From: Bugula neritina
Lineage: Eukaryota; Bryozoa; Gymnolaemata; Cheilostomatida; Bugulidae
Length of the DNA: 60,000 nucleotides
Assembly (NCBI GenBank): GCA_964035545.1
Contig: OZ037768.1
Span: 18,581,700-18,641,699, forward strand
Direction of reading: 5' to 3'
In this document: positions 16,455-59,917 of the stretch, one piece after another
Layout: each line of letters starts with the position of its first letter
Position numbering within the stretch: position 1 is the first letter of the stretch
Translations under genes and position numbers: made by a program
Notes under the pieces: model-generated
What the model was told of the DNA's origin: nothing
The model's input: the letters and a program-made list of their open reading frames with translations, nothing else
Databases searched by the model: none

Positions 16455-17730
<1,276 letters not shown>

Positions 17731-18719
17731 TTTATTATTTCTACTCACTTCAGGTAAAATAACAAATAAATACTCTAAAAATTTTTTTTTTAATAAACAG
17801 AAGGATTATAAGATAAAGGTGTTGAAGCTTTAAAAAGAGTAGAAATCTTAAAACAGAGAATTATAGCTTAGAAAGCCATATATAGAATTGGTACTAGCAA
17901 ATTTAAAACTCAAAATAAAAAAAACAAGATAAGCTATTTAGTAGCTGAAAGCTTTGAGGATGTATTTACAGAGAAGCAGTGATTGATGGGCTGCAGATTT
18001 TATAAATTATTTCCTGAACTTGAATGACAAATCTTTTGCAACTGAGTGATATCGGTATACTATATTTCCAAAACATGGTGGTGATAACTCTCAAGATCCA
18101 TTACACTATTATATGCCTAGCACCACACCAGCACCAGAAACTTAGCTTAAATCTCTCTGTTGTTCAGAGTAGCAATGTAGGGATTCTGATAAACTGGTTT
18201 GAGGTCTAGCTAAAGCACAAATGGTTGACCTTTGAATTTTTCAACCTTGAGTTTTAACTCTAACGCAGTAATATTTCATAGAACATGATATAAAATATTA
18301 TGGCTTATTAGCAGATGTTTATAAACTTTACTTTGTGAGTTCACAGCTCAAACATAATGTAAATTTAGTAAATAAATAATGTTTGGTGCCCATTTCAACT
18401 ATTTTATAAATTATTATAATCCTATTGGCGGATTGTCTTTAGAAATAAAAGTTTTTATCAGTTAATTTGTGAATGATTTCTGAACTGTGAGCTACTATAA
18501 CAGGCAAAGGCTTATTTTAAAAAATAGATGTGGCAAGACTGCCTCTTTATTGTATAGTAGCATACTAGTTTTTAATAATTGATTTTAGAATTTCATCTAA
18601 TTTTAGCAAGGTGTTTTAGATGTTCTAGATTTTTAGATAATATTCAAGTTTGCTAAACACCTAAAATATATATGACCAAGAATTGACACAATTGCAATAG
18701 AATATAGAATGATGACAAC

Positions 18720-21700
18720 CTAATTAATTACAGGTAAGAGATCAATGAAAATTTTCTTGCTCTTTTCATTTACAGAGTAACACAAGTTAAAGTATTGTTT
18801 GGATTGAAATTTTTCTCTCAAAACCCCAGCTACATCTGTTAGCAGATCAACTAGCTCTACTCTCTGTACAGATGGGTGGTGGACAGGAAGGCTGTTCAGG
18901 ATTGATTCTCTAAATTTCTTTATCTCTGTGCCTGTTTGGAGCTTAGAAGCTCTACTGTTGGTGACTCCTGAGAGATGTTCAGAAAAGCATTTGAAAAACA
19001 TTCCAGCTTTCGATCTAAAGAATGTCAAAAGAGAAAAGACTGCATACATTCTAAAAACAGAATTTTCCACTATTTCTAAAATACAGCTCAACTCATAACA
19101 GTTGCTTCAAAAATGTAGTTTCTCACGATACCTGCTGTCTGGTAAGGTTGTGAAGCAGATGTAGCAATCTATTGGTACGTTTAAAGGCCTGAAAGATTGT
19201 CTATCCCATTCTTGAGTTTTAATCGCAGAAGGTAATTGTTTTTGGGCTGGTTTATATTGCAGCTCTATCTCATTCTCAGGCCAAGGGAACTCATCGGTAG
19301 ATTCAAAACTATGAGGAGCTCTGTTGTATATGGCTGAAATATCTCCTCTGCAGCAAGAGAGGAACAGTAGCTAAAATATTTAAGATATTTTTTCAAGTCT
19401 CAGCTAAGTATTATAATTACACTTTAGGTGAACTTAAGAAACAATTGACAAATCACAGATATTTTACGTGGTACCCACAACGATTAAAACGGTTTTGATG
19501 AGAAACGGAATGAATCATAGATATATACTTCAATAAGTGTTTTTTAAACCTAAACAAGTAAAGCTCTTCAACTAAGCTTATACTTTAGGAATATTCCTAA
19601 CATGTCCAGAGTTAAAGTGATTCACTACTTCCTGTACTGGACAGTTAGACTCGCCATCATGTCCATAAATCATTCCATCTTTACCGTGAGAGAAGATAGC
19701 AAGAGCAGCCATTGCACCATGTCCTTCTGATTTAGAGAATTCTGCTATGAAGCTGAGCATTTCATCTGCAGGTACATTGCACTTAACATCAACCTAAAAC
19801 GTTAAAATGGTATGACTGGTAAATTATTATAATAAGTAGCTAAAAGGAACCCACAGCGTTAATTATGCTAAAGTTGCGTTTATACTTTCACAATTTTCAG
19901 TCAGAAATTCAACTTTAAAGTTTTTAGTGCTAATAAATTAAATATAAAACAATGAAAGAAGACAATACACATTTTTCTTCTTTCCATTTTTATTTCATAA
20001 GTAAAATTTTGGGCATAAACACAACTACTTTGTATTTATTACTCACAGCAAATCCAAAGTGGTCAGTTAAGATTTTTTGGGCAGAGGTTAAAGTTTCAGA
20101 CCGTCTTTTAGAGATTGTTATCTCATGTGATGTTGCATTAGAAGATATTTCTAAGTTGTTACAGATTATCAGAGCTCTCCCTCTGTTGTTTTCACTTATG
20201 ACCATTTTGTTCTCCAACGACTTTCTCATTTCACCACCGTCCAATCTACTCGGCTTCTCATCACCAGACTTTCTCTCTTCACCATCAGTAGTTGCTCTCA
20301 ATACACCATCATCTGATGTTATTTCACCAGAATCTGATTTACTTGCTCTACCATTATCTGGTCGATTCTCTTCACAATCATCTGTTGAAACTTCTTCACC
20401 ATAATCTGGTGTACTTGTTTCACTTGCTTCATCTGCCAGACACTCATTCCTATCTCTGATGTATCTCTTGCTCAGAGTTGAGTTTACACTCACTTTCTGA
20501 ACATCAGGATCACAGCTGAACTCATCGATCAGGGAGTGTATTGACTTGTAACGCCATAGCTCTGGTACTGAGTGACTATAAATTTTGGTAAACATTATAA
20601 GCATTCACTGTCCACTATTTTTTGTAAACAAACTATATTATTGGTGTTACCATACACAAATAAAGTTGCCAATGATTTATACAGTATAAATTAATAATGA
20701 CAATTATGAGTGCCAATTAAAAAATTATCTGATGTTTTTCGATAGCTAAATATTAAGTGGTACCTTCTTTTGCTTTCTGCCGTGTTATACTGTACAGAGA
20801 GCATCAGGTAGTCAGGTCCAGGTGGTACTAGGTTCAAATCTGCTTCTTTTTCAAAACTTTGTATCACTGCTATCTGACAAATATAATAACATATATTTAT
20901 AAATTTCCATATACTATATATGTTTGTAAAAAGAATTTTAAAAACAAAAAAAATGTTTATTTTGTACCTTAGGCTTTCCATTGTATAAAGGCAAGTCCAT
21001 ATCATTTAGTTGGTTCTGTATAGACACCTGTTTAGGTTCTTCCACAATGTCTGTGTTCATGACAACAAGCAGGTGATCTTCTGCTCCAATTGTTGTCTGG
21101 TAAAGCAATATTATTTAAAGTGAATTAGAGTAGCTTTGATCTTTTGTTTATTAAACTCTGTTTTGTCAAATAAAATTTAGAATTTTCTTGAAACAAAACA
21201 GTTTAGGAACTGGTTTAATTGCTAAATACACTCGAAGCTATTATAAACAACTGAATGGTCTTTAGTTAAACTTTTTATCAAATGTAGTTATATTAATAAG
21301 ACATTCTGCACCTAATGTTTTCTTTAGAAAAATAATTTGTTTACAAATAGAAGAATACTAACCATGTAATGCAAAACATACATGATATACTGTAATACCA
21401 TAATAATATAACAACATGCTGCAATTAAATATGGAAAGATCATAATGTATTTTATAAACATTAATGACATTCCACAACTTACTATGTCGCCAAACTTTCC
21501 ATTTGTTGGAAAAGACAAGCTAGCTGATTTCTGTCGATTAGCAACTGAAGGGTGTGAAATGGGTGACAGTAGACGGGCGGAGTCAAGCAGTGAATATTCA
21601 TTTAACAAGTATTTTAGCACTCTGAGAATAGTGTCAGTATATTGGTAATATCTTTCAGGTAATGAAAGTTGTAGCGGAAATTCTACGCCAGTAAGCATTT

Positions 21701-23840
21701 CTATTATTTTGTATTTAGATTTCAAGCTCAAGTTTGTGTAATCACCGAGCACCTTCTGGATATAGTACATCTCATGAAATCCTTTTCTATGGATTATCTG
21801 TCCACAATCAACCATTTGTGTGTTTGGTGACTTCTCAATGCTTTGTCTTGCTGACAAAGGAAGATGTAGCATAAAGTCAGCAAATACTTTGGTGTTGTAC
21901 TTGGCAGCAACATAGTGAAGTGGTGTGTTACCGTATACATCCGGATACATCATGTCTATTATGCTCATATAATGTAAATAATCTTGCAGCAATTCGTAAA
22001 GCTCTTTCTGAGATGGAGACAAGGCCATAAGGTGCAAAATGTTCTGGCGATATTTGTTATGCTTTTGTAAGTGAAGGCGCATTGTATTTAAGTCAGATAT
22101 ATCTGCTACCTGCTCAAGAAGCTCATCTAGGGCATTAAATTTTCCAAACCTGATCAGTGAGAGAATGGGAGTATTGCCCTCCTTATCTTCACAAGTGATT
22201 AGTTTCTTCACACTTTGGCCATGAAGCTGTGAAGTGAGAAGAATTTCCACAACTTTCTTGTTATAAGCAATGTGCAACGCTGTTAGGCCATTCTTGTCTT
22301 GTAAATAAATCAGGTCATCATTTTCTGAAAACAATTTACACAGATATTCTACAATACCAGTCCTACCTTCAGCAGCTGATACATGCAATGCCGTGAATCC
22401 ATTGTTATCGGTGGACAACAAATATTCTTTCTGTCGGTGTGGCCTAACTGATTCCACAAGTACTTTTGCAATCCCTTTCTTACTAGCAAAGTGCAGCGCT
22501 TTCCAACCATTGCTCGCTTTCATCTGTACAAGTTTATCATCTCTTGGATATAAACTACAGAGATACTCAACTATGTCAGCTTTACCATAAGCTGCTGCCA
22601 TATGTAAAGCTGTACAATCATTCTCATTAACGGAAAACACCAAATTTTTTTGACTGTTGGCATCTACAGACTCGACAAGTAGCTTTGCTATTTCCCGATT
22701 AATTGCTACGTGTAAAGGAGTTGAACCTTCTGAATCCTTCATCAGTAAAAATTCACTGTCACCGGGATACAGACTACACAAGTATTCTACTATACCTGCT
22801 CTCCCAGCTGCAGCTGCTCTATACAGGGCTGTGCACTGATTATTGTCAACAGATTTTACAAACTCACTTCGCTTATCTGGTGCAACAGATTCCACGAGCA
22901 GTTCTGCTATTTTTCTATTTGTTGCAGAATGTAGAGCTGTGCAGCCATCACTGTTTTTTGTAGCTGCTAGGTTATTGTAGGTTGGAAGTAAACTGAGAAG
23001 ATATTTTACTACATCAACTTTATCTAACGCAACTGCAGTATGTAATGCTGTAAATTGGAGAGATGTGACAAATGAAATTGAATCGATTTGTCTTTCTGGT
23101 GATACCGACTCTATAAGTAGCTTTGCTATGGCTTCGGTTTTGGCATAATGTAGAGCTGTACTGCCATCACTATTTTGTTTTAGTATTAGCTCATCATTTG
23201 GTAAATACAAACTGCAGAGATAGTCTACTACATCTGTTCTACCCATTGCGGCAGGCTCATGCAGCGCTGTACACTGATACTTGTCAGCAGACAGAACCAA
23301 GTCTTTCTGCCTATCTGTTGTTACTGACTCTACAAGTAGTTTTGCTATTTCACGGTTACTAGCATAATGTAGAGCTGTTTTACCAACCTTATTTTTCTTT
23401 AATATCAGTTCATCATTATTTGAACATAAACTGCAGAAATATTCAACCAAATCAGTTTCCTTTGTGTCACTAGCTAAATGTAATGCTGTACATAGATATT
23501 TATCAGCTGATAGAATGTATTCCATTCGTCTTTCTGGTGTGACTGACTCTACAAGTAGCTTTGCTATTTCTTTAGTCTTCGCATAATGTAGAGCTGTTTT
23601 GCCACACGAGTCACTTTTTAGTATCAATCCATCGTCAACTGAATCTAAGCTGCATAGATATTTCACCACGCCAGTTCTATCATGGCTAGCTGCTACATGT
23701 AATGCTGTACAGCCTTCCTTGTCAACACGATCTAGATATTCTCTTCTCTCCTCTGGTTTAACTGACTCTATAAGTAGCATTGCTGCTTCCTTATTTTCAG
23801 CATTATGTAGATCACTACCAAAACCTGTCCTGCTATTCAT
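18720..23840 (-). CDS. Ankyrin repeats - inactive caspase-like domain - acidic linker - caspase domain
   Basis: Seven exons (minus) join in frame with consensus splice sites: 23840-21483, 21096-20968, 20873-20764, 20575-20047, 19793-19584, 19370-19132 and 19014-18720; total 1,289 residues. A GTG 24 bases upstream of the chosen ATG is open, so an extra 5' exon is possible. Residues about 1-560 are ankyrin repeats in about seven 70-residue double units (CTALHVAA...VEYLCSLYP and GKTALHYA...AKLLVESV). After a helical region comes a caspase-like segment: DHLLVVMNTDI where SHG is expected, NGKPKIAVIQSFEKE where KPKLFFIQACRG is expected, then GPDYLMLSV and PELWRYKSIHSL, matching p20-end to p10 order without catalytic His or Cys. 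An Asp/Ser/Glu-rich linker follows. The second domain has NRGRALIICNN, DHFGFAVDVKCN, AIFSHGKDGMIYGHDG (catalytic His), NIPKLLFLSCCRGD (catalytic Cys), PIDCYICFTTLPDSRSK and a p10-like end. It is a likely cysteine protease; signalling role is inferred. If the ankyrin exon belonged to a separate gene it would need a stop before its perfect GTAAGT donor, and there is none. Confidence 0.8.
20150..20455 (-). other. Acidic low-complexity linker between the two caspase-like domains
   Basis: Within exon 20575-20047 the protein runs through repeated short S/T-D-x-G-E words (TPDYGEEVSTDDCEEN, SKSDSGEITSDDG, TTDGEERKSGDEK). Many Asp residues are followed by Gly, Ser or Asp, so the linker could hold self-cleavage sites; this is inference. 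Confidence 0.7.
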
Positions 23841-54395: not shown

Positions 54396-57300
54396 CACAT
54401 AATATGATTTATAAAAGAAAAATAAAACCAATAAGAGACTGAAATGTTATAAGCTTACAGTACAAGGTGGTTGCATCCAAGGTTCACCGTCAATCTGCAT
54501 TGGGAGTCGTTTCCTGCTTCTTATAACGACAGAAGCACACTGAGCCAGTCGTCTGCAGTTACTCCTCAGTCCCGTCTTGACAGCCCCTAAGTGAATGCAT
54601 TTCTCCATACCAACGACCTCTATTAGCCCATCCCCGATGTCTTTAAATATGTAATATTATAAATAAGGCATGCAAAACTTTTATAAAAGAATAAAAATAA
54701 AAAAAATCTGCTCATTTGCTATATGTGAAGAAAAATACTATACTAATAAATAGAATGAGATAAGATTGCATGCAAAAAAAAGAATAAAATTAATTATGTA
54801 CATTACTCTCACTATAAAGTTTAAAATAGAGATTATGTACTTGAGCACTTAAGCAGCGGCAAGCAGTGTGCATTGTGCTAATGAGGAGACAAACCCTAAA
54901 ACAGTTACTATACACATATTAAGTTACATATATGTGTGTAAGCGCGTGTTTGAGTATATACACACACACGCGCGCGCGCACGCACGCACGCACACGCACA
55001 CGCACACACACACACACGCACACACAAATGTTCACCTTGAAATGCAGTTGTGAGATCATTAATGTCTGATAATTCCCCGTCACGAGATTTTGATAAACGG
55101 CGAGTTTGACTGTTTTCCCCCCACAAGTTGGACCCCGCATGTGCACTCGGTATGTTCAGTAAGCATATTCCTTCCAAACTAGGTCCGTTTGCAAGATTTA
55201 AAGCTACGCCATCACACTAAACACACAACAAATATTTTTGTAAATAACTTTATATGCAAAATTTTATGAGAAGCAAACGAAAAAAATTGATCCATAAATT
55301 CCTTTGTAACTTGTTTTACTATAATTTTTATTATTTATTTGACTATTTTAGTCATTAAGAACTTTCTAGAACTCTATTATAAATTTAGCTCTATTGATTC
55401 ATTTACCATGACATCGATATTCTCATGCAGGTTCTTGCAGGTGGCAGATATGGTTTCTGCCGACCAGAACTCCAGGTACCAGAGTTTGTTTCTCACTCGG
55501 CTGTTGAATTTCTCCGGATGTTTTTGTCTCATCATGTGAAACTGGTGCGCCACCTGTGCATCCTGGAAAACAGAGATTGGTATATCAGGTCCTATACATT
55601 GGCAGCAATAAATAAATAAGCAGAAAACTGTTTTAAAGATAGCATTTCTTAACCAAATTAAACATCGCTACTAAGAAATAAAAAATCCATGCTAAATAGC
55701 TTCATATCAATTAAGTTTAGAATCATTTTTAATTAGTACCTTCATTATAATAATCATTTTACAACAATTCATTATGAGAGAACATCATTAACCACATAAT
55801 TATTAGATAATTAAAATATTACAAGTTGATATACAGTTTATGCAGAAAATAGGAAATAATTAATTATAATTTTTTAAAACAAAAAGCTGCCATACATTTT
55901 AAAAATGAGCAAGCATATTTACATCCATCAATCTCACAGCTGTGGAATAACATCAAAAACATAGTACTGGTGGTTTAAACTAACAGATAATAGATAATAA
56001 TAGAATAGAACAAATAATATAGAATCAAGATATATAATTAAGGCATGTATCACAAATATATCACATAATTATAGATAACATATTATTATATTGCGTAAAT
56101 AAATTTACTGTAAGAGACATATTAAAATATTTATTTAATCAGACAGAACTTTGGACCATAAAATTAAATGGCCATCTTCAAATTTTAAACTAAAGATGGT
56201 CATGTTATATCATGACAAAAAGTGGTTTGTTTTAACATGTTTTTTAAAGTAAATTTTCCTATCACAAACTATCATGAGCTTATACAGACACAGGACTATA
56301 CTTACTACACCAATACTGAAATAGTTATTGAATATATTGCAGGGTATAGGATCTCCTTTCTCTTCCTCTCCATCACCAGAGTTGCTAAACTGAATGTGCC
56401 ATCTATCTAGCATTACCGTGTGACCTAGACTAACTCTCTTCAAGATCTTGATTATACTCTCTCCCTCATAACCCCCGCCCCAGCGTAGACATCTAGCCAT
56501 GTCATTACCTGTGCCCAGAGGTAACACTACCACTGGGGGTCTTTTGGGCAGATCCAGCTTGTCTAGAAAATAGCATCGACTTAAAGCAAACAGAACTAAA
56601 TACAGCAATGGCATTGTAGTGTTGAGATTACACAGTGGTCCCTGTGGTGTAATGGTTAGAGCGCCTGCTTGCAAGCTGGAAGTCTTGGGTTCGAATTTCA
56701 GTGGAGGCAAAAATTTTATAGGCCTGAATAAATTAACAATAACTACATATTAGTGATATAATTAATTAATTTGCATTTATAATGAAAATTTGTCATTAGA
56801 CAAAAATCTTTGAGGGGTGCCGCTCTATATGCATTTGATAAAAAGTAGGAAGTTGAAATATAGAAATGACACCAACCCATAGTGTCAAGGAGCCAACCAA
56901 CTGTGCCATCGCCTCCACACACCATCACTCTGCAGTCAATATCCTGAAACTGTTTCAACGCAACTGAGGGTCCACCATCTTTCAACATGTTGAATACTTG
57001 ACGTGGGTTGAGAAGGTACTGAAACTTCTTTAATAGCCTCATACCTTGCTTGCCGCCACTCTTTGGGTTAATGAATACAACAAGAGGGATGGCGGATGGC
57101 GGAGGAAGAATGTGAAGTGAACTAGATGCAGCAGACATTGAGACAGTCGAGTTCTGCCGGGAGAGACGACCTTGTCTGTCAAGGACACTCGGACTGATGC
57201 AGGTTGGAGGTATTATATGCTCTCTCAGATCTCCAAGGTCACATTCCAGTGGAATCAGAGAGCAACATTTATTGTGAACCTGAAGAGTAGTGAGTGCAAA

Positions 57301-59917
57301 TATTATGTTAAGTAGTTACAGTTCATTGAGAAGACAACTTTAGTATGAAAGGCAAGTTAGGAAGCGTCTAAATATACGAGAAAAAAGTTAACTTAAACAA
57401 AAGACGCTTAATTGATTTCTCTCTGCAATAAATTTAAACATAATTGTTGTGTATTTTGCATGATTGGATAAAAATAAACTTTAACACTTTGAATGTTCAC
57501 AAGCATGTGCTAAAGAAATCATTGTTATCAACAGCTGTAATGTATGCAACAAGTAAATATCTAGAAAAAGAAGTTTCTAATAAACAAAATGCTACATAAA
57601 TACTGTCTTATAATGAAATATTTCGTAAAGTAAAGTTTACCAGACTTACATTAATCTGACACCATCTGCAATGCAGACCAGTTATTCCAGTTTTTATTGT
57701 CTTTCGACACTTGAAGCATTTGCCAGCACAATTACCTTCCACCCAGTGATGCAACATCGGCTAAAATATTATGTTAGTAAAAATTTAAACATCAATAGAA
57801 TTTCTTTCAATGACAAAATTGCAAAAGATGTTACATTAAACCACATGATAATTAAACATTGAGGATTATGAAAGAAAAACATTCTAGTTGATAAACCACG
57901 ATTGGGTATTCCTAAAGAGTAGACAACTCTCTAACAGCCTACAGATCAATCTATATATTCATATAAAAGTGGGAAATATACTGATTAGCCTAATGCGGGA
58001 GAATTGACATATAGAGGTGAAGCAGGACCCTGAAGTACAGAATATAAAGTGTACATGTGCACGCAGTACTTACAATGTTTATGTACATAACTACAGTGTG
58101 TATACAGTAACAACATCTATGCGTACCTCTTTGTCACTACTGTTGCTCTAAGATTTCACAAATAATAAAAATAGAGTGTATGACACACTAAATATTAGCA
58201 AGATAATTTGACAGGAAGGTATTTAGACTGTTATCTGATTTTCTCTGCTGCCTAGACCAGCTGACACTGTGTCAAGGCCTTCTGAAACGCAGCACTTGTT
58301 TTAGCTATCACATTCTAGACAGTATGATAAAGTTTTGCATCCTGTAAAAGTATATTATACTGAAAATTCCAGAAAAAATATCCTTTAACCTTTCATATTA
58401 TGTTCAAATAACCCTAACCGATTAAGATAAACAGATGATGCCTGGTGAACTATTGCTTTATCAGAGAAATTGAGATGTCTAGCCATACAATTAAAACAAA
58501 TATTTTAAAGAACTATCAACTGTGAAAATAGATTCCATGAAAAACTTTTTAAAAAAAATTAAGCAATTTTAAAAGTTAGAGCTAGAAGAAATAGCAAATG
58601 CACATAGCATTGTTCTGTTCTTGCAAACTCTATGTTACAACTTCTCTGTTATCAAAAGTTTTGGTTGATAAGTTTTCTTTATAAAACACTTTAAATGTTT
58701 GCAATCAAAAAATTCGAGCACAAAAATTTTATGTACTCAAGAAATCTTTATATATCTACTAAAGCGTTACTTGATAGTGGCCCAAAGTCAGTTGGAAAAA
58801 TTGTGACTTTAAAGTAGCTATACCTTTCGTGACAAAATCAAATCTAATTCATACTAACATATTTTTAAATGCAGCAAAAAGTATAAATGGTGGACTTACT
58901 GGAGTATTCTTTCTAGATTTGGTGTAAGTAGTAATACAGCATGCAGGAGCACGTGAAGCACATCTTTCATGGACAGTATATTTACAGACTGCAAAACAAC
59001 GAGACATCATAACACATACACATGTGAGAACGTGAAAGTAGACCAAATTACAAGCGATAATTAGCACTAAACTCAAAACCTGGTTAGTAAACTTGCCCAC
59101 TTGTTACTGCGCATAGCAAATGCAAAAAACATAGCAATAAAACTTCCTAGTAAAGGAAAGTTAGAATTTTTGAATACATTCTTCAAAGAAAAGCTTACAT
59201 TTACAAGAAAGTCCTTGTTTGCCAAAGACAACTAAAAGATTACGACAGAGATTACAGTATGCTCTTTTAGTGAAGTGTTTAAGACGCCAGACATGAGAGC
59301 CATCATCTTGAACATTCTAGAAAGTAGAGCATATGCATAACATCTGTAAACAGCAGTTATTTCAGGGTTTGTCTCCTCGTCAGCACAGAACAAAGTACAA
59401 TAAAACAAATTAATGATTTTACGAAAGCATGTTATACTAAAACACTGCACTATTCTACTGTATAACATGTAAATAGTTCCTCTTGACTTTGGCAAAAATA
59501 TACACAAATTGAAAAAAGAAAACTATCTCTAAAAGCCTCAACAAGGTAGTTTACTGACAATAAAATGCAAACAAGTTGATTATCACACCCAGAATAATCC
59601 ATAAACAATTCCCAAAGCTTAAAATATTTTCAGATACAAAAAAAGTAAAGAAATTCATCTGAGAATGAAATATTTCCTCTGCTACTCACTGCCTATATTT
59701 TAGTTTGAAAATAACATTTGCTATTCCCCATAATAGAATAGGAGAGGAAAGGACAAAGCGGAGATAGGTGAGAAAAATAATAGAAAGCAGTAGAAACCTT
59801 ATCAAGTCCAAGTAAGACCAATAAAGGGATGCTAGTCATACCACCCCTCTTCCACTCTTCAATAGTAACCATACCATCAGAGTCATAGTCTATCTCTTGC
59901 ATCATTTCCTGAAGAAT
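53820..59917 (-). CDS. DGK: Type I diacylglycerol kinase, C-terminal 567 residues (5' end beyond window)
   Basis: Ten exons (minus): 59917-59798 (EF hand, [18 protein letters not shown]), 59316-59199 and 58988-58900 (first C1: [26 protein letters not shown]), 57760-57650 (second C1: [17 protein letters not shown]), 57279-56877 and 56562-56306 (catalytic: [50 protein letters not shown]), then the accessory domain in 55562-55407, 55216-55036, 54640-54459 and 53906-53820 ([35 protein letters not shown]). All phases agree and the stop is in place. EF hand plus two C1 modules defines the Ca2+-regulated alpha/beta/gamma class, which phosphorylates diacylglycerol to phosphatidic acid at membranes and so ends DAG signalling to PKC. 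The upstream EF hand and RVH domain should lie past 60000. The ATP-site GGDGT and GTGND motifs are intact. Confidence 0.95.
54066..54204. repeat. (AT)n microsatellite with TAATAA interruptions
   Basis: About 140 bases of AT dinucleotides in the last intron of the diacylglycerol kinase gene. Confidence 0.95.
54297..54391. repeat. (AT)n(AC)n compound microsatellite with CGCGCG interruption
   Basis: ATATAT, then ACACACGCGCGCACACGCAC, then pure AC for about 40 bases. Same intron as the array at 54066. Confidence 0.95.
54957..55027. repeat. (AC)n/(CG) microsatellite
   Basis: ACACACACGCGCGCGCGCAC followed by alternating ACGC and ACAC units; alternating purine-pyrimidine throughout, so Z-DNA-prone. 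Lies in a diacylglycerol kinase intron. Confidence 0.9.
56640..56720 (+). mobile_element. tRNA-derived SINE fragment (copy 2)
   Basis: TGTGGTGTAATGGTTAGAGC (box A), CCTGCTTGCAAGCTGG (anticodon-arm-like) and GGGTTCGAATTTC (near-consensus box B) followed by an A-rich end. It matches the minus-strand element at 14.7 kb over about 70 bases. The acceptor and T stems pair poorly, so I do not call a functional tRNA. It lies in the intron splitting the kinase catalytic domain. Confidence 0.65.

Follow-up and report, generated by a model that had tools for sequence, protein, structure and literature searches.

The succession of an inactive and an active caspase domain within a single protein has been described in Acropora corals, where caspase-X, as presented in the main text of the corresponding paper, carries an active domain preceded by an inactive one that lacks both Cys and His (PMC4715348). 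In the same account, two caspase domains are recognised, four copies are reported from A. millepora, the cDNA described encodes 721 aa, and killing of HeLa cells increased when the inactive domain was absent (PMC4715348). The term “ankyrin” is absent from the main text of the paper (PMC4715348). The gene analyzed here, from the bryozoan Bugula neritina, carries an ankyrin arm, a degenerate caspase-like segment and a catalytic caspase domain. An earlier note on this DNA knew of no described protein with this order; none with ankyrin repeats, a pseudocaspase and a caspase was found among the matches listed in the open-licence literature, as far as the texts available there extend, but the tandem of a dead and a live domain is precedented by coral caspase-X (PMC4715348). 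New here are the ankyrin arm, the half domain, the copy number and the phylum. No study of the cell-death repertoire of this animal was found among the matches in the open-licence literature searched.

Gene model in the window

The window is the whole stretch of 60,000 nucleotides that was analyzed (C4:18581700-18641699), and the gene lies very probably on chromosome 4 of B. neritina tzBugNeri2.1, a genome with a total of 216.00 Mb in 320 scaffolds as stated in the available part of its publication (PMC11480708). On the minus strand the sequence reads as seven exons (23864-21483, 21096-20968, 20873-20764, 20575-20047, 19793-19584, 19370-19132 and 19014-18720) joined in frame across GT/AG introns of phases 0, 0, 2, 0, 0 and 2, in agreement with the seven phase-matched exons proposed earlier. 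Exons 2 to 7 occupy 18720-21096, and the 2.4-kb ankyrin exon (exon 1) lies upstream of them. This exon is open from 23864, and its first ATG, at 23840, is most likely the translation start, which gives a protein of 1289 aa. A Met shortly ahead of the first repeat was also present in nine other copies of the gene, namely those whose exon lay wholly inside the fetched stretch (in five copies the stretch ended within it), so that the most straightforward reading is a protein of 1289 aa that has no death-fold domain. The features are:

18720-23840, minus strand: whole gene, from the likely start ATG at 23840 to the stop at 18720, seven exons, 1289 aa
21483-23840, minus strand: exon 1, ankyrin repeats (to about 22185; Pfam Ank families) and conserved tail (about 22184-21483; matched, together with the segment, at 18 loci)
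20968-21096, minus strand: exon 2, first segment, strand-3-like part up to GKPK, without SHG
20764-20873, minus strand: exon 3, strand-4-like IAVIQSF (without Cys) and strand-5-like PPGPDYLMLSV
20458-20575, minus strand: first part of exon 4, helix SIHSLIDEF and VNSTLSKRYI, the latter resembling by eye the last caspase (dimer-interface) strand
20185-20457, minus strand: middle of exon 4, variable acidic linker
20047-20184, minus strand: last part of exon 4, beginning of the catalytic caspase domain (RGRALIICNN..)
19584-19793, minus strand: exon 5, p20 with the catalytic His motif FSHGKDG (19694-19674), ending in ..IPK
19132-19370, minus strand: exon 6, LSCCRGD with the catalytic Cys (19361-19341), intersubunit linker and IDCYICFTTLPDS
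18720-19014, minus strand: exon 7, remaining p10 (helices, last strand NLCYSVNEKSKKIFIDLLP) and stop
18546-18551, minus strand: AATAAA poly(A) signal, about 170 bases past the stop

Pfam searches of a 1297-codon model recognised ankyrin repeats, in 15 stretches when the single-repeat model Ank was used and in 12 with Ank_2, and a single Peptidase_C14 match at residues 1005-1222 (E 4.3e-15; 56.5 bits vs. a cut-off of 21.4), listed no death-fold domain in the protein model, and gave no match to the first segment. The ankyrin arm and the tail together comprise 786 aa. The NCBIfam scan of the ankyrin exon returned three rows, all far below their cut-offs, and Rfam had no matches in the window. Elsewhere in the window, coding frames for C2H2 zinc fingers were observed downstream of the gene (16553-17202, minus strand), and frames at 56213-57315, also on the minus strand, contain what we take to be a motif of the diacylglycerol kinase catalytic domain.

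Copies of the gene and other caspase loci in the genome

The genome searched comprised 215.8 Mb in 295 contigs. With the first segment as query, 44 matches with E up to 10 were obtained in this genome, of which three are the window gene itself; given these matches and the same gene order at other loci, the segment is not a chance feature. The order ankyrin, tail, segment, caspase was recovered in all 14 loci fetched first (L039-L052; tblastn E up to 0.05); in L052, tblastn left the opening pieces of both segment and caspase unmatched, and exon 2 of this locus was later read by eye. L053 sits inside L039 and was left out of the locus set. The tail as query pointed to 19 places (the window, the 14 fetched loci and four more), and all three of the more divergent loci L054, L055 and L056 had segment and caspase pieces in the same order (the exon-2 part of L055 by eye). 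In total, at least 18 loci, the window gene among them, share the order ankyrin, tail, first segment, caspase, such locus counts being lower bounds from a search that scores the best candidates only. These loci are distributed over chromosomes 8 (eight), 1 (three), 2 (two), 4 (two), and 3, 6 and 9 (one each). Across the 18 loci, the open frame at the tail is 491 to 3025 aa long, and the ankyrin arm varied in length and sequence between copies.

The 19th tail match, L057 on chromosome 9 (C9:9344500-9348500), was rejected as a member of the family: the caspase stretch behind its ankyrin exon (GKPKIVVIQACSGG) is of another, more canonical kind, an in-frame TAG is present, and the segment is absent. 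In L039 and L040, the exon 3-4 piece of the segment occurs again between segment and caspase. Trees built from different parts of the gene disagreed: L039 grouped with L041 in the caspase tree only, and the partner of L047 was L049 for the segment and L041 for the tail. From this disagreement among segment, caspase and tail trees, exchange among copies appears possible.

Median dN/dS, calculated from pairs with dS under 2, was 0.32 for the segment (62 of 91 pairs), 0.23 for caspase exons 5-6 (54 of 91) and 0.34 for the tail (29 of 91), in a set from which L052 was dropped and L054-L056 were left out. A single segment pair, L045/L046, reached 0.99 with very few changes. As judged from these ratios, both the segment and the caspase are under constraint. 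Moreover, 11 of the 15 automatic models gave uninterrupted reading frames of 446-555 aa, so that a relic or pseudogene is unlikely; the other four are failures of the models (extra exons read through in L039 and L040, a GC donor in L048, no clear exon 2 in L052).

For caspases in general, at least 176 exon-level matches to Peptidase_C14, many of them clustered, were found in the same genome (150 of 295 candidates scored), which at the level of sequence matches is a large caspase expansion in B. neritina. Clusters of these matches occur, for example, on chromosome 1 (32.8-35.5 Mb), chromosome 6 (2.5-6.3 Mb) and chromosome 7 (5.0-7.7 Mb). The best C14 match of the genome, L001 (C4:5000994-5001812), encodes a full-length caspase domain in a single open frame, with STH.. 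in the place of SHG and FDASFG in that of QACRG; judging by these replacements, it is probably a stand-alone pseudocaspase.

Ancestry of the first segment and state of the catalytic domain

The first segment of the window gene displays the landmarks EDHLLVVMNTD, GKPK/IAVIQSF, PPGPDYLMLSV, SIHSLIDEF and VNSTLSKRYI. The loss of both catalytic residues, as read in the earlier note, was confirmed: GKPK/IAVIQSF has no Cys, and MNTD stands where SHG would be. The same pattern was observed among the copies. An SHG-like motif was absent from the segment in all 18 loci (L052 and L054-L056 by eye), and a Cys occupied the catalytic place in one of the 18 (L047, which reads IRTC but lacks the RG that would follow; the count includes four copies inspected by eye). 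Conserved elements included PPxPD[YF] in 18/18 loci and NSTL in 16/18 (NSTY in L055, SSTL in L052), and 14 segment copies aligned over 127 columns with a mean column identity of 62%. On visual inspection, the first strand of the segment corresponds to the caspase strand at whose end the catalytic His normally lies. Neither strands 1-2 nor the initial helices of the fold were found in the segment in this way, and the 386-base intron ahead of it offers little room for them.

Profile searches (Pfam C14, PDB caspases, hhalign) gave no significant match for caspase ancestry of the segment. In both domains of the window gene, a phase-0 intron falls right behind a Lys ahead of strand 4 and a phase-2 intron just past strand 5, an agreement that was read freely in the window gene and for which the phase was imposed by script in the 14 paralogues; all 15 modelled loci fit the shared pattern. 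Among other caspase loci, five of the eight scanned matched the pattern searched (L001, L003, L006, L007 and L008), none of these five having an intron at the first point; L005 also reads through it, and L002 and L004 were outside the comparison. The profile register with its anchor fixed by the intron ranked first of 273, 277, 277, 284 and 259 registers in five overlapping window sizes, and hhalign chose the same register. Because of the shared intron places and phases and the intron-fixed register, descent from a caspase is supported, the segment being the C-terminal half (strand 3 to last strand) of a caspase with the same two introns, from which the catalytic pair was lost. The designation pseudocaspase used previously is supported as to the missing pair and the descent, but it applies to a C-terminal half only and not to a whole domain as in c-FLIP, which the word suggests.

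The earlier note had put forward structure prediction as a check of the fold. In a low-confidence single-sequence fold of the segment, the top six Foldseek rows were all MALT1 (three entries, six chains), caspases or caspase-like folds made up 25 of the 46 VIA rows shown, c-FLIP among them, and the predicted strand order was beta-alpha-beta-beta-alpha-beta, as expected. The best neighbours are caspase-like, but model confidence is low and the folds resemble caspases weakly.

The second domain of the window gene keeps both catalytic motifs, FSHGKDG and LSCCRGD, as noted before, and the His (SHG) and Cys (Cys-Arg-Gly) motifs were present in 18/18 loci. In caspase-1, the catalytic residues are His237 and Cys285 and the pocket residues Arg179, Gln283 and Arg341, as given in the available text of the source (PMC11121540). 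The place of Gln283 in the P1 pocket was taken by Ser in 16, Cys in one and Gly in one of the 18 loci. Ahead of the place of the WRN motif, the site of the second pocket Arg, [FY][ST]T[LM]PDS was found in 18/18 loci; the next exon, read in 15 loci, begins with SK[AP]G in 13, SKRE in L048 and DTFV in L052, and WRN was not seen in these 15, an Arg or Lys lying nearby in a gapped alignment. An Arg invariant in the eight copies aligned is by eye a candidate equivalent of Arg179; the HMMER alignment does not put it at that position. The domain had been called a complete caspase; this stands for the His/Cys dyad but not for the Gln of the P1 pocket. With the pocket Gln missing and WRN unseen, cleavage after Asp is not assured.

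Possible function and comparison with described systems

The architecture, the copy number, the constraint and the intact dyad can be read from the genome sequence itself. On this basis, we consider it on balance probable that these genes form an expanded bryozoan family of ankyrin-armed caspases, in which the half-caspase segment docks on the protease and holds or licenses it, and the ankyrin arm binds a ligand or partner. The segment retains a strand resembling the dimer-interface strand of caspases, through which it would dock on the catalytic domain at its p10 side, either within one chain or across two, similarly to c-FLIP on caspase-8 and as modelled for caspase-X. Once docked, it would hold or license the protease. 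The ankyrin arm may bind a ligand or partner and bring chains together, in place of the CARD or DED of initiator caspases. We infer the docking from this strand and the regulation by analogy with c-FLIP and caspase-X, and a sensing role for the arm is likewise presumed.

Several other explanations were considered, and the confidences attached to them are not mutually exclusive. The gene model rests on genomic sequence, and two or three adjoining genes might have been wrongly joined in it; yet the segment ends and the caspase begins within the same exon 4, and tail and segment start are fused in one open frame in L055, which makes such joining unlikely. With the same order found at 18 loci, that reading is nearly refuted, and a single gene running from the ankyrin arm through a caspase-like segment without the catalytic pair to a caspase with it, as first proposed, is upheld. 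It is improbable, to a lesser degree, that the segment is not derived from a caspase but is a small alpha/beta domain private to the family, serving as adaptor or folding spacer, with landmark matches due to chance. Such an origin would agree with the lack of a significant caspase profile match, the N-terminal half of the fold that was not found and the low confidence of the structure models, but it is opposed by two introns matching in place and phase, the first of them missing from other caspase exons (the five pattern matches and L005), a register ranked first of 259-284, caspase-like folds at the top of both structure lists, and a strand order that agrees with expectation.

As regards function, the caspase-derived segment might be a surface for oligomerisation or recruitment that drives activation in trans between chains, instead of a brake. 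The interface-like last strand (NSTL, 16/18) and PPxPD[YF] (18/18) are among its conserved parts, and the second exon 3-4 piece in L039 and L040 might fit a docking module; against this, the whole inactive domain of caspase-X lowered activity according to the text available (PMC4715348). We regard this reading, which overlaps with the docking and regulation favoured above, as rather unlikely. Equally doubtful is the view that the second domain is not an Asp-specific caspase, the protein acting as a scaffold or as a protease with different specificity, and the segment being a relic. The pocket Gln is replaced in every locus (Ser 16, Cys 1, Gly 1), 13 of 15 loci have PDS and then SK[AP]G at the WRN place, and, according to the part of the source available, function is predicted to be lost in mouse caspase-12, where Lys replaces Arg341 (PMC11121540), but the His and Cys motifs are kept in 18/18 loci, the dN/dS of the caspase is 0.23, and P1 preference is described in the same text as varying widely among clan CD proteases (PMC11121540). 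The first part of this view is compatible with the regulated ankyrin-armed caspase preferred here. Slightly less doubtful, though still tentative, is a one-chain, receptor-like multigene family that combines a variable ankyrin sensor, a half-caspase regulator arisen by internal duplication of caspase exons, and a caspase-fold executioner with a changed P1 pocket, possibly acting in immunity or colony self-recognition by cleavage at residues other than aspartate.

If the regulated ankyrin-armed caspase is the correct reading, the protein may be a cell-death or immune enzyme that carries its own sensor and a built-in partner. The union of a live caspase and a dead partner in one chain would then also have arisen far from corals, and half a domain would be able to suffice as partner, so that the amount of pseudocaspase needed for control becomes a directly testable question. 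Together, the 18-locus family with variable ankyrin arms and the 176 or more C14 exon matches suggest that this colonial animal has an extensive cell-death repertoire.

Compared with described systems, the gene resembles initiator caspases in that a long N-terminal region for interactions (a CARD or DED prodomain in the latter) precedes the catalytic C14 domain; here, this region consists of ankyrin repeats and a degenerate half caspase, with no death-fold domain in the Pfam listing. As in the pair c-FLIP and caspase-8, a dead caspase partner stands beside a live one, possibly by way of the p10 interface; the protease-like domain of c-FLIP is whole, unlike the bryozoan half domain. Oyster caspases, as described in the available main text, are likewise an expanded invertebrate set with unusual prodomains (dsRNA-binding) and some members devoid of catalytic residues in degenerate active sites, but the dead members are separate genes and “ankyrin” does not appear in that text (PMC7836458). 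The TRADD-N expansions resemble the present family in that they are confined to particular animal lineages and join ankyrin repeats or a caspase to modules of the death fold; in the portion of that work available, ankyrin and caspase are alternatives behind death-fold and TRADD-N domains, with no dead caspase half alongside (PMC8195603). The inactive domain of caspase-X is whole as described, so that its regulation is transferred to the bryozoan gene by analogy only (PMC4715348). Both have the order of dead and live domains in tandem and several copies per genome, but in the bryozoan gene, differing from caspase-X as available in its description, the first domain is a half, unmatched by Pfam, and is carried behind a 786-aa ankyrin arm and tail at 18 loci (PMC4715348).
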